From: Mesorhizobium sp. BR1-1-16
Lineage (GTDB): Bacteria > Pseudomonadota > Alphaproteobacteria > Rhizobiales > Kaistiaceae
Reading direction: 5' to 3'
Length of the DNA: 64,000 bases
Assembly: GCF_020165495.1 (NCBI RefSeq)
Contig: NZ_JAIUIE010000001.1
Span: forward strand, 744,001-808,000
The position numbers were made by a program, and so were the translations under genes. The notes under the pieces were generated by a model that was not told the DNA's origin, did no database searches, and saw only the letters and a list, made by a program, of their open reading frames with translations. This document shows, in pieces, positions 7,030-10,843 of this stretch. How positions within the stretch are numbered: the first letter of the stretch is position 1; every line of letters starts with the position of its first letter.

Positions 7030-8283
7030 TTAGGCCGGACGGATCAGGACGTGTTTCTTGCGGCCGAGCGAGAGCTTGACGACGCCTTCGGGCGTGAGCA
7101 GGCCGGGGCCGATCATCGTCTTTTCGTCGGTCAGCGCCGCATCGTTGACCCTGAGGCCGCCGCCCTTGATCTGGCGCCGCGCCTCGCCATTCGAAGCGAC
7201 GAGGCCGGCGCGGACGAAGAGGCCGAGCGCGCCGATGCCGGCTTCGAACTCGGCAGCTGGCACTTCGATCGTCGGCAGCGACTCGGCGAGCGCGCCTTCC
7301 TCGAAGGTCTGGCGGGCCGTCTCCGCCGCAGCTTCGGCGGCTTCCCGTCCATGCACGACGGCCGTCGCCTCGGTGGCGAGGATCTTCTTCGCGTCGTTGA
7401 TCTCGGCGCCGCCGAGCGCTTCGAGCCGCGCGATCTCCGAAAGCGGCAGCCGCGTGAAGATCTTGAGGAAGCGGCCAACATCGGCGTCCTCGGTGTTGCG
7501 GAAATACTGCCAGAAATCATAGGGGCTGAAGAGATCGCCGTTCAGCCAGACGGCGCCCTTGGCCGTCTTGCCCATCTTGGCGCCCGAAGAGGTGGTCAGC
7601 AGCGGCGTCGTCAGCGCATAGAGTTGCGGCCGGTCCATCCGGTGAGCCAGATCGACGCCGTTGATGATGTTGCCCCATTGGTCGGAGCCCCCCATCTGCA
7701 GCACGCAATCATAGCGGCGGTTCAGCTCGACGAAGTCGTAGCCCTGCATGATCATGTAGTTGAATTCGAGAAAGGAGAGCGATTGCTCGCGATCGAGCCG
7801 CAGCTTCACCGAATCGAACGACAGCATGCGGTTGACAGAGAAATGCCGGCCGACATCGCGCAAGAATTCGATGTAGTTGAGCTTGAGCAGCCAGTCGGCA
7901 TTGTTGACCATGACCGCATCTCCGGCGCCATCGCCGAAGCAGAGGATACGCGAGAAGATCTGCTTGATGCCGGCGATGTTGCGGTCGATTTCCTCGACGG
8001 TCAGCAGCTTGCGCTGGTCGTCGCGAAACGAGGGATCGCCGACCATCGACGTGCCACCGCCCATCAGCGCGATCGGCCGGTGGCCGGTTTCCTGCAGCCA
8101 ATGGAGCATGGTCGCGGAAATCAGATTGCCGATATGAAGGCTGGTCGCAGTCGCGTCATAGCCGACATAGGCCGTGATCGGGCCCTTGACGCATTGTGCG
8201 TCCAGCCCCTCGGGGTCGGAGATCTGGTGGATGAGCCCGCGCTCGCTGAGCACCTGCAGGAAATCGGACTTGAACGCGGTCAT
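7030..8283 (-). CDS. tyrS: Tyrosyl-tRNA synthetase
   Basis: 417 aa class I aminoacyl-tRNA synthetase charging tRNA-Tyr. The HIGH motif is HIGN at residues 50-53, the KMSKS-type loop is KMGKT at 236-240, and the tyrosine/ATP pocket block [11 protein letters not shown] is at about 196-206. The C-terminal third ends with an S4-like RNA-binding domain ([22 protein letters not shown]). Length and motif spacing are standard. It lies downstream of aroG on the same strand, separated by about 90 nt holding a strong hairpin. Confidence 0.97.
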
Positions 8284-8324
8284 GGCATCGTCTCGAAAGG
8301 GTGGGTGTCGTGGCAGGCTTTAGC

Positions 8325-8356
8325 AGCCGCCGCTGAAAAGATCATCAGCGGCGGCT
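8325..8356 (-). terminator. 12-bp perfect hairpin between aroG and tyrS
   Basis: AGCCGCCGCTGA (8325-8336) pairs perfectly with TCAGCGGCGGCT (8345-8356) around an 8-nt loop. In the direction of aroG and tyrS there is no U-tract after the stem, so it could be a weak or Rho-assisted terminator of aroG, an RNA-stability element, or a structured leader for tyrS, whose start is about 42 nt further on. The stem is certain; the function is not. Confidence 0.45.
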
Positions 8357-8375
8357 CTCTTTGACGAGGGTTGCT

Positions 8376-9464
8376 TCAGACGGCGGTGGCGAGGCGGGCT
8401 TCCGGCCGGGCGCGCTCGCGACGGCGGGCGACGGCTTCGGCAAGCTGCTCCAGGACGCCGATCGAAGTCTGCCAGTCGATGCAGCCATCGGTGATGCTCT
8501 GGCCGTAGACGAGCGGACGGCCGGGGACGAGGTCCTGGCGCCCCGCGACGAGATTGCTCTCGATCATCACGCCCATGATGCGGTCGTCGCCGGTGGCGAT
8601 CTGAGCGCCTATCTCCTCGCAGACGCGCGGCTGGTTTTCCGGCTTCTTCAGGCTGTTGGCGTGGCTCGCATCGATCATCAGGAAGGGCGGCAGCCCAGCC
8701 TTTGCGAGCTCGGCCGCGGCCGCGTCGACGCTGGGTGCATCATAGTTCGGTGCTTTGCCGCCGCGCAGGATGATATGGCAGTCGTCATTACCGGTCGTGG
8801 CAGCGATTGCCGATCGTCCATCCTTGGTCACCGCCAGGAAATGATGCGGCTGCGAGGCGGAGAGCACCGCGTCAACAGCGATCTTCACATTGCCGTCCGT
8901 GCCGTTCTTGAAGCCGACGGGGCAGGAGAGGCCGGAGGCGAGTTCGCGATGCACCTGGCTCTCGGTCGTGCGCGCGCCGATGGCGCCCCAGCCGACGAGA
9001 TCGGCGAAATATTGCGGCGTCGTCATGTCGAGGAATTCGGAACCTGCCGGAAGGCCGAGCTTGTTGATCTCAAGCAGCAGGCTGCGAGCCCGGCGAAGGC
9101 CCTTGTCAATATGGAAGCTGCCGTCGAGGTCGGGATCGTTGATCAGCCCCTTCCAGCCGACCGTGGTGCGCGGCTTCTCGAAATAGACGCGCATGACAAT
9201 CTCGAGCTCCGAGCCGAGGCGCTGGCGCATTTCGACGAGGCGATGGGCATAATCGATCGCCGCGTCGGGATCATGGATCGAGCACGGTCCGATCACGACG
9301 GCGAGGCGATCGTCGCGGCCATGCAGGATCTCGTGTAGCGAACGGCGCGTCGCGGCGACCGTCTGGCTGGCCACGTCGGTGCGGGGGAACTCCGCCATCA
9401 CTGCGGAAGGCGGCGAGAGTTCTTTCAAAGCGCTGATGCGCAGGTCGTCGGTGGTGTCGGGCAC
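8376..9464 (-). CDS. aroG: 3-deoxy-7-phosphoheptulonate synthase, class I
   Basis: 362 aa DAHP synthase, first step of the shikimate pathway (PEP plus erythrose-4-phosphate). The start is GTG 9464 (protein begins MPDTTDDLRIS), chosen for AAGGAG at 9478-9473 and family length. Hallmarks of the AroF/G/H type are visible: VVIGPCSIHDP, KPRTTVGWKGL, GARTTESQVHRE, IDASHANS and the C-terminal GQSITDGCIDW. It lies just downstream of an aromatic-rich leader peptide and an intrinsic terminator (9502-9639), so expression is probably controlled by ribosome-mediated attenuation. An in-frame extension to 9611 reads through the attenuator and is not credible. Confidence 0.96.
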   Translation of the reverse strand: MPDTTDDLRISALKELSPPSAVMAEFPRTDVASQTVAATRRSLHEILHGRDDRLAVVIGPCSIHDPDAAIDYAHRLVEMRQRLGSELEIVMRVYFEKPRTTVGWKGLINDPDLDGSFHIDKGLRRARSLLLEINKLGLPAGSEFLDMTTPQYFADLVGWGAIGARTTESQVHRELASGLSCPVGFKNGTDGNVKIAVDAVLSASQPHHFLAVTKDGRSAIAATTGNDDCHIILRGGKAPNYDAPSVDAAAAELAKAGLPPFLMIDASHANSLKKPENQPRVCEEIGAQIATGDDRIMGVMIESNLVAGRQDLVPGRPLVYGQSITDGCIDWQTSIGVLEQLAEAVARRRERARPEARLATAV

Positions 9465-9501
9465 GGTTCGGGCTCCTTGGAGTTTCCCGGCAGCGGCCAA
9501 C

Positions 9502-9531
9502 AAAAAAGCCGCCAACTCGGTTTGGCGGCTT
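9502..9531 (-). terminator. Attenuator terminator in the aroG leader
   Basis: On the minus strand AAGCCGCCAA (9531-9522) and TTGGCGGCTT (9515-9506) form a 10-bp stem around a 6-nt loop, running into TTTTTT (9507-9502). This is a textbook intrinsic terminator placed between the leader peptide stop (9553) and the aroG ribosome site (9478). A competing partner exists upstream: GGCGGCGG (9583-9576) can pair with the CCGCC of the first terminator arm and so act as antiterminator. Confidence 0.85.
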
Positions 9532-9552
9532 GGTGGTGGATGCTTCGATTGT

Positions 9553-9639
9553 CTACTTCGAGCGCGCTCCTGCCTCCGCCGCCGGCAACGGATAGCTAAA
9601 GTACCAACCAAAGAAGAAGGTGCGGGCAGAGAGGTTCAT
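9553..9639 (-). CDS. Aromatic-rich leader peptide of the aroG attenuator
   Basis: 28 aa peptide, ATG 9639 to TAG 9553, beginning MNLSARTFFF. Residues 8-16 read FFFGWYFSY: four Phe, one Trp and two Tyr in nine positions. The codons for PLPAAEAGARSK that follow contain the G-rich antiterminator strand, and the terminator begins about 20 nt after the stop. A ribosome stalled for lack of charged Phe-, Trp- or Tyr-tRNA would leave that strand free and allow aroG transcription. No Shine-Dalgarno sequence precedes the ATG, and the -10 box ends 7 nt before it, so the mRNA is probably leaderless. The rhizobial trpL leader is known to be organised this way. Confidence 0.88.
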   Translation of the reverse strand: MNLSARTFFFGWYFSYPLPAAEAGARSK

Positions 9640-9646
9640 GAGCGAG

Positions 9647-9675
9647 GCTATAGCCGAGCCGCAGGACTTTGTCAC
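9647..9675 (-). promoter_or_regulatory. Promoter of the aroG leader transcript
   Basis: GTGACA (9675-9670) and TATAGC (9652-9647) are separated by 17 bp, a good sigma-70-type match. The expected transcription start is at about 9641-9639, that is at the A of the leader-peptide ATG. The element lies inside the short region divergent from anmK. Confidence 0.65.
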
Positions 9676-9742
9676 CTCCTTGATTGACGCGGGCGCGGCG
9701 GCTGGCGAAACAGAGCGCTCGGGCGGAGATGGGATCCGAATC

Positions 9743-10843
9743 ATGCGCAGGATTGTCGCGGCGGGGCTGATGAGCGGAACGTCGATGGATGGCATCGACG
9801 CGGCCTTGATCGCCACCGACGGCGAGGATGTCGAGGACTTCGGGCCGACCGCCTTCCGGCCCTATTCGGACGCTGAGCGCGCTGTGCTGCGTGCAGCTCT
9901 CGCCGCCGCCACCACCTTGACCGACCGGACAGCGCGGCCTGGCGTCCTGGCAGAGGCCGAGCGCATCGTCACCGACGCGCATGCCGAAACGGTCGAGGGG
10001 CTGCTCGCGCGCGACGATGTCGACGCGGTCAGGGTCTCGCTGGTCGGCTTTCATGGCCAGACCGTCTTCCATGCCCCGGCGCGGCGGCTCACCGTACAGA
10101 TCGGCGACGGAGCCGCGCTAGCCAAACGGCTGGGCATCCCTGTCGTCCATGATTTCCGTGCCGCCGACATCGCCGCGGGCGGCCAGGGCGCGCCGCTGGT
10201 GCCGATCTTCCATCGTGCGCTCGTCCGGGCCGCCGGGCTTTCGGGCGATGTTGCCGTGGTCAATATCGGCGGGGTCGCGAATGTCACGCGGGTCGCAGCC
10301 GATGGCTCCCTGATCGCCTTCGATACCGGCCCCGGCAATGCGCTGATCGACGACCTGATGCTTGAGCGCACCGGCGCAGCCATGGATCGCGACGGGCGGC
10401 TGTCGCTCTCGGGAAAGGTGCAGGCGCAGACGCTGGCCGAGCTGATCGCCGATCCCTGGTTTGATCTGAAGCCGCCGAAATCGCTCGATCGCGACGCATT
10501 CTCGCGCCGGCCGGTGGCGAGGCTGTCGACGGCGGATGCCGCCGCGACGCTCGCGGCCTTCACCGCCGAGGCGATCATCCGCGGCATCGCGCTCGCCGGC
10601 GGGGCCGACAGGATCGTCGTCTGCGGCGGCGGCGCCCATAATCCCGCCATTCTCCGCCAGCTCGCGGTCATGAGCCGGGCGGACGTCACCACAGCCGATG
10701 CGCATGGCTGGTCGGTCGATTTCATTGAGGCGCAGGCCTTCGCCTATCTCGCCGCGAGAAACCGTGCCGGCCTGCCGATCAGCTTCCCCGAAACCACCGG
10801 CTGTCCTGCGCCGATGACCGGCGGCGTGCTATCGCTCCCTTGA
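9743..10843 (+). CDS. anmK: Anhydro-N-acetylmuramic acid kinase
   Basis: 366 aa ASKHA-fold kinase that phosphorylates and opens 1,6-anhydro-MurNAc during cell-wall recycling, giving MurNAc-6-phosphate. The start is ATG 9743; the family signature GLMSGTSMDGIDAA follows directly. Also visible are GFHGQTVFH, VVHDFRAADIAAGGQGAPLVPIFH, the ATP-binding FDTGPGNALIDD, and VCGGGAHN near the C-terminus. The family's usual length is about 370 aa. It is divergent from the aroG leader and has no recycling partner (murQ) beside it. Confidence 0.96.
   Translation: MRRIVAAGLMSGTSMDGIDAALIATDGEDVEDFGPTAFRPYSDAERAVLRAALAAATTLTDRTARPGVLAEAERIVTDAHAETVEGLLARDDVDAVRVSLVGFHGQTVFHAPARRLTVQIGDGAALAKRLGIPVVHDFRAADIAAGGQGAPLVPIFHRALVRAAGLSGDVAVVNIGGVANVTRVAADGSLIAFDTGPGNALIDDLMLERTGAAMDRDGRLSLSGKVQAQTLAELIADPWFDLKPPKSLDRDAFSRRPVARLSTADAAATLAAFTAEAIIRGIALAGGADRIVVCGGGAHNPAILRQLAVMSRADVTTADAHGWSVDFIEAQAFAYLAARNRAGLPISFPETTGCPAPMTGGVLSLP

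Follow-up and report, generated by a model that had tools for sequence, protein, structure and literature searches.

Entry into the aromatic pathway is gated by DAHP synthase, whose control in E. coli is shared by TyrR, TrpR, and isozymes with separate feedback. The window, by which we mean the whole 64,000-nucleotide stretch of a Kaistia genome analyzed here, raises the question of how this gate could be governed by RNA. On its minus strand, the gene aroG is preceded by a leader open reading frame (ORF), a terminator, and a competing antiterminator strand (9639-9502). Judged from sequence comparisons, this leader very probably switches on the first enzyme of aromatic synthesis when Phe, Tyr, or Trp runs short.

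Parts of the aroG leader

All features described here lie on the minus strand unless noted. The leader ORF (MNLSARTFFFGWYFSYPLPAAEAGARSK, then TAG; 9639-9553) has 28 codons plus the stop and is probably translated from a leaderless mRNA. Codons 8 to 16 (9592..9618) encode the aromatic run FFFGWYFSY and are the proposed stall codons. Antiterminator strand 2, CCGGCGGCGGAGGCAGGA, occupies 9568..9585, with its aligned core GGCGG at 9580-9576. Strand 3, AAGCCGCCAA (9522..9531), is common to the antiterminator and the terminator, and terminator strand 4 is TTGGCGGCTT (9506..9515). The whole terminator (9531-9502) reads AAGCCGCCAA-ACCGAG-TTGGCGGCTT plus a T tail, with a 10-bp stem and a run of six Ts (9502..9507). 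The predicted terminated transcript is 138 nt, the same as the span 9502-9639 quoted in a preliminary description of this DNA. The codon number, aromatic run, stem, T run, and competing strand given in that description were all confirmed in the window sequence.

The regulated gene is aroG (9464-8376), which encodes a class I DAHP synthase, starts with GTG 37 nt beyond the terminator, and has a Shine-Dalgarno-like site, AAGGAG, at 9473..9478. Its product matches TIGR00034 (aroFGH) at 524 bits, where the cut-off is 173. The next gene on the same strand, after a gap of 92 nt, is tyrS (7030..8283), which encodes tyrosyl-tRNA synthetase. Inspection of this gap by eye (8284-8375) revealed a 12-bp hairpin, AGCCGCCGCTGA/TCAGCGGCGGCT, with no T run. 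Upstream of the leader, a gene on the opposite strand, presumably anmK, has its ATG at 9743. The terminator of the aroG leader is the only terminator-like site between 9000 and 10000. As shuffles average 0.7 such sites, the hairpin gains its significance from conservation, not from its presence. The window leader RNA as a whole has no unusual stability (z -1.41).

Upstream of the ORF, a -35-like element, GTGACA (9670..9675), is followed after 17 nt by a -10-like element, TATAGC (9647..9652), which ends 7 nt from the ATG. GTGACA or close variants stand 5′ of the leader ATG in most loci of the order. A sigma-70 scan of 9000-10000 that demanded the final T of the -10 element returned no site; the GTGACA/TATAGC pair scores 9 of 12 and lacks this T. 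At 57 of 68 order loci, 6-9 nt separate the leader ATG from the end of the -10 element in the best promoter-like pair. None of the 68 has a Shine-Dalgarno-like word at positions -16 to -4 (13 nt) of the leader ATG; 62 have one around the start of the aroG match, where the stretch searched (48 nt) was wider than the leader's 13 nt. With so little room between the promoter-like pair and the ATG, the transcript probably starts at or beside the AUG, which would make the mRNA leaderless. The trpL mRNA of Sinorhizobium meliloti is described as leaderless in excerpts of a published report (PMC10117765). The few Burkholderia-like loci showed no such promoter-like pair at the leader ATG.

Conservation and reach of the leader

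Within the genus, aroG is present in 13 of 14 genomes, and all 13 carry the leader. The order contains aroG in 68 of 397 genomes (E <= 1e-60). A search upstream of these genes, as proposed in the preliminary description, found an aromatic-rich leader ORF in 68 of 68, starting 165-236 nt from the aroG match, and a terminator between leader and aroG in 68 of 68 when loops of up to 12 nt were allowed. A strict scan (loop 3-9) found no terminator in 11 of the 68 and chose a different hairpin in one. All 68 leaders contain Phe and Tyr codons, and 65 contain Trp. For a chance test, we counted ORFs with an ATG start, 12-34 codons, and at least four aromatics in 10, including Phe, Trp, and Tyr. Such leader-type ORFs were found in 65 of the 68 upstream regions, compared to 10 of 2040 dinucleotide shuffles of the same regions and 3 of 408 control stretches from the same loci.

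Pairwise comparisons within genera, in which the pairs are not independent, were made at codons where one or more members have an aromatic residue and revealed 90 synonymous, 73 aromatic-to-aromatic, and 49 aromatic-to-other changes. Over the whole leader ORF, nonsynonymous changes outnumber synonymous ones (472 vs. 226), so conservation does not extend to the entire leader peptide. In genus g29, which belongs to the same family as Mesorhizobium (g65), two aroG genes (L141 and L142) have a different upstream region and no leader, perhaps through natural loss.

We aligned 50 leaders out of the 70 left after removal of near-identical ones. In the terminator, 92% of cells are paired and three pairs show double changes (1.6 in shuffles). 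The antiterminator has 94% of cells paired and also three double-change pairs (0.9 in shuffles), compared to 17-69% and at most one in versions slid along the alignment. The number of antiterminator pair types does not exceed that of shuffles (4 vs. 3.9). Two antiterminator pairs change from G-C to A-U, at columns 73/154 (two g29 rows) and 76/151 (one g132 row), and at both, the terminator partner drops to a U-G wobble. The 76/151 change is seen again in a second g132 genome (L134). Four Devosia-like leaders (L162, L164, L165, and L166) contain an A-C mismatch, with CTGGCAG opposite CCGCCAG. The antiterminator and terminator exclude one another, with strand 3 common to both, and the double changes specific to 2:3 pairing represent few independent events. 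The covariation anticipated for the two competing stems is therefore present in both, as double changes from few independent events, and one slid control (-3) equals the antiterminator in covariation score (0.071 vs. 0.070).

Strand 2 is informative in another respect. Its core lies in frame 2 in 148 of 172 leaders, in frame 1 in 13, and in frame 0 in five, and was not found in six; this tally used a loose five-base pattern and includes the mis-picked ORFs L107 and L127 and some named loci that duplicate others. Two leaders of genus g132 (L072 and L134) carry a near-identical strand 2 in different frames. Strand 2 thus persists whichever of the three reading frames it falls in and is therefore conserved as RNA.

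Related aroG leaders occur in other Alphaproteobacteria, in Burkholderiales, and in Xanthomonadales. In the class, a scan detected the leader at 13 of 15 aroG loci outside the order. Of the other two loci, one has a terminator behind a decayed leader and one is truncated by a contig end. Both were recovered by an RNA model, R1, built from the 50 aligned leaders (E 1.2e-12 and 1.6e-22, the latter on a separate contig of that genome). A search of the phylum matched aroG in 219 of 397 genomes, 196 of them outside the order, from which we examined 40 loci, the 20 best-scoring and 20 chosen to spread over families. Leader and terminator were present in 20 of the 40 and in only two of the 20 lower-scoring loci; L102, L107, and L125 were included, and L127 was discounted, by eye. 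Two deeper searches, with a rule of at least three aromatics in 10, found both elements at 31 of 33 further loci. Of the 47 g29 genomes that matched, 30 contributed loci, and 26 of the 30 were new.

Among the best 80 named loci of a longer list, 71 have a leader by a fixed rule and 51 have all three amino acids. The names include Kaistia, Devosia, Bradyrhizobium, Mesorhizobium, Caulobacter, and Methylosinus among Alphaproteobacteria and, elsewhere, Bordetella, Achromobacter, Burkholderia and allies, Massilia, Xanthomonas, Stenotrophomonas, and Dyella. The nine without a leader include two loci cut by contig ends, one GTG-started frame, and one interrupted frame with the terminator kept. In Candidatus Burkholderia humilis (L180:1320-1500), the leader frame before aroG is apparently interrupted and the terminator retained. 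Identical leaders equate groups of our survey with named genera: f32g40 with Bradyrhizobium, f6g14 with Devosia, f21g65 with Mesorhizobium, f216 with Stenotrophomonas, and f236 with Burkholderia and allies. The locus sets overlap (for example, L161 is the contig of L009, and L221 and L234 probably duplicate G554:C5 and G940:C1), and their counts are not to be summed.

The RNA model also gave a measure of specificity. At E <= 1e-12, R1 matched 42 sites among 257 genomes of the order, all of them immediately 5′ of an aroG gene; many of the 42 loci had been used to build the model. Of 16 weaker matches outside aroG that were examined from a longer list, five are tyrS leaders, one is a trpE leader, and 10 resemble chance terminators, with the names tyrS and trpE assigned by eye from sequence. 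The five tyrS leaders (L271-L275), from five genomes of one other family of the order, are a related Phe/Tyr leader, MIKTAATFVYFYYVTSIPAAA, and its variants, directly before tyrS. They too have a promoter-like sequence and a terminator, and none of the five genomes was in the set of the order that carries this aroG. The remaining weak match (L276), a WWW leader with a terminator before a trpE-like gene, is apparently an ordinary trp attenuator.

Modeled stalling and the amino acids probably read

To model stalling, we masked a ribosome footprint on the window leader and folded the transcript up to strand 4. With codons 8, 9, 10, 12, and 13 in the A site, strand 3 pairs with the part of the leader ahead of the ribosome with modeled probabilities of 0.62, 0.64, 0.63, 0.67, and 0.59. 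Pairing falls to 0.38 at codon 14 and 0.24 at codon 16 and never exceeds 0.04 once codon 20 is reached; pairing of strand 3 with the leader behind the ribosome reaches up to 0.33. By this gradient, stalls at the early aromatic codons, including Trp, should antiterminate, with little effect expected from a stall at the last Tyr. Over 98 leaders, median 2:3 pairing is 0.68 at the first aromatic codon and 0.62 at the last. Controls with synonymous codons have a median of 0.54, compared to 0.62 observed. Observed pairing exceeds the control mean at 82 of the 98 loci, but beats nearly all controls at only 19. The window locus is not among these 19 (0.50, with 13 of 40 controls equally high). The controls come this close because the amino acids encoded there already specify much of strand 2.

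Strand 3 of the window pairs with the leader even when no ribosome is present (0.59), and in equilibrium folding of the full-length leader the terminator is preferred in every state (P 0.93-0.95). Since the terminator wins at equilibrium in all states, we infer that the choice must be kinetic and made during transcription. A 1:2 hairpin is predicted at only 12 of 68 order loci, although the window can form one in its equilibrium fold, and we rejected this hairpin as a general feature. We therefore make no claim to the four-strand layout of trp leaders, only to a trp-type mode of action.

In the mechanism we propose, the transcript would start with the leader AUG or immediately beside it, and the first ribosome would trail the polymerase. 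When charged Phe-, Tyr-, or Trp-tRNA is short, this ribosome would stall within codons 8-16, leaving strand 2 free to pair with strand 3; the 3:4 terminator would not form and aroG would be transcribed. With well-charged tRNAs, the ribosome would instead cover strand 2, strands 3 and 4 would pair, and transcription would terminate after ~138 nt. The anatomy, the conservation of aromatic codons, the covariation of terminator and antiterminator, the conservation of strand 2 as RNA, and the promoter-like spacing are the observations on which this proposal rests, and we consider it highly likely that the aroG leader is a ribosome-mediated transcription attenuator. The attenuation suggested in the preliminary description is thus strongly supported by the conserved codons, terminator, and antiterminator, while the leaderless start, the stalling, the read-through, the amino acids sensed, and the strength of the response are what the model predicts.

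The position of a perfect terminator just before aroG could also reflect simple insulation of the gene, with no regulation. As the aromatic ORF is conserved, the antiterminator covaries, and the promoter spacing is kept, we regard this explanation as very improbable. Somewhat more credible, yet still unlikely, is that the terminated leader RNA and/or its peptide act in trans, besides or instead of attenuation in cis. The plan of the leader, in which a terminated RNA carries a short ORF that is probably leaderless, resembles that of S. meliloti, where rnTrpL and peTrpL are reported to act in trans in the excerpts available (PMC10117765). Against this stand the peptide end, which is not kept as peptide because strand 2 occurs in three different frames, and the strong R1 matches, which lie only before aroG.

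The strongest competitor to a three-amino-acid attenuator concerns Trp. Leaders of the order average 2.4 Phe, 2.6 Tyr, and 0.97 Trp codons, raising the possibility that only Phe and Tyr are sensed and that the lone Trp codon is incidental. Trp is missing at 3 of 68 order loci, in 16 of 29 g29 leaders, in 14 of 101 leaders of the main set (L127 among the 14 is unconvincing; L107 is truly without Trp), and in 18 of 71 named leaders from the best 80 loci, most of them from Betaproteobacteria. Phe is absent nowhere and Tyr from two named leaders only. Yet Trp is retained at 65 of 68 order loci, the Trp codon of the window sits where modeled stalls are most effective, and ORFs with all three amino acids occur far above chance. 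We therefore consider sensing of Phe and Tyr only to be doubtful, though a serious alternative. In genus g29 (L067-L071 and L135-L160), Trp alternates with Ser (TGG/TCG) between species and is present in 13 of 29 leaders.

These sequences are best explained by an attenuator that responds to the supply of Phe and Tyr and, with less certainty, of Trp. The reading of three amino acids put forward in the preliminary description thus remains plausible through the retention of Trp in the order, and its Trp part is weakened by a single codon that is often missing elsewhere. We give even chances to a broader scheme, in which the family in Alphaproteobacteria, Burkholderiales, and Xanthomonadales would act as an OR gate for a shortage of any of the three aromatic aminoacyl-tRNAs, one inducible DAHP synthase would answer to all end products, and the module would have moved between aroG and tyrS. 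If so, one RNA integrates three aromatic end products without a repressor. The size of the family, with natural variants that have and lack Trp, makes the reading of several amino acids at one stall site directly testable.

The enzyme presumably controlled and comparison with known systems

The preliminary description had also suggested that the leader could replace multiple feedback-sensitive isozymes. This reading was rejected, as 76 of 80 leader-bearing genomes tested, including that of the window, also encode a class II DAHP synthase (74 of 74 Alphaproteobacteria, two of two Stenotrophomonas-like genomes [f216], and none of four Burkholderiales-like genomes). With both enzymes coexisting, the class I AroG under the switch is probably an inducible back-up beside class II in these Alphaproteobacteria. 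Upstream of the class II gene, no aromatic leader with a terminator was found in any of the 20 genomes examined among the 76 with that gene; one locus (L247) has a GTG frame without a terminator and another (L255) one weak hairpin without a leader.

At all 13 Kaistia loci, tyrS follows aroG, making co-regulation of the two genes possible on the basis of gene order. We checked for tyrS where at least 1000 nt of downstream DNA was available, which was the case for 116 of 156 survey loci (the 13 Kaistia loci included) and 76 of 80 named loci; the 40 phylum loci have no downstream DNA and are outside this count. tyrS was not found after aroG at the other loci with enough downstream DNA, and the sole named case (L161) is Kaistia. 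One locus has a cobalamin riboswitch (L073:2642-2848; E 1.6e-29) immediately 3′ of aroG.

Comparison with Rfam gave no match in the window at the gathering threshold and none at or above cut-off in the leaders of 20 loci, where the only hit was a sub-threshold RNAI match at the terminator of L098. No T-box riboswitch was matched in the window or the 20 leader loci. We rejected Phe_leader (RF01859; 21.2 bits, gathering cut-off 55), as well as loose-threshold matches to asX2 and BcKCsr7, which were far below cut-off; BcKCsr7 had no match in the Burkholderia-like leaders. We found no description of the aroG leader in the literature searched, although an earlier prediction may exist, most likely in Vitreschak et al. 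(2004). The leader has no matching Rfam family and is most likely a variant of a known attenuation mechanism. Annotators gain a small ORF and an RNA before many aroG genes, some of them rhizobial (Bradyrhizobium and Mesorhizobium).

Leaders that read more than one amino acid are known from ilvGMEDA and thrABC, where the amino acids are branched-chain or threonine and isoleucine rather than aromatic. Two other leaders precede DAHP synthase genes. Corynebacterium glutamicum aroR is described, in the portions of the reports consulted, as a Phe-Tyr-Phe leader peptide before aroF (PMC4046766 and PMC11802643), with Tyr supply reported not to matter there. It shares the type of gene with the aroG leader but is actinobacterial, and only Phe-Tyr-Phe is named in those portions; we compared the two by description. 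In Acholeplasma, the uORFC-13-1 motif is, according to excerpts of its source, a predicted Phe-containing uORF with a terminator before aroF (PMC8632094). The motif, with at least one Phe codon, is given there as comprising 24 sequences, from Acholeplasma and environmental samples only, and we liken it to the aroG leader by description, not by sequence.

The closest parallels are the trp, phe, and his leaders, such as trpL and pheL of E. coli and trpL of Alphaproteobacteria. Like the aroG leader, they combine codons for the product, a terminator before the first gene, and a competing antiterminator, and S. meliloti trpL, as excerpted (PMC10117765), is leaderless, as the aroG leader probably is. 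Unlike them, the aroG leader has no general 1:2 hairpin, joins three related amino acids in one run, and stands before aroG.
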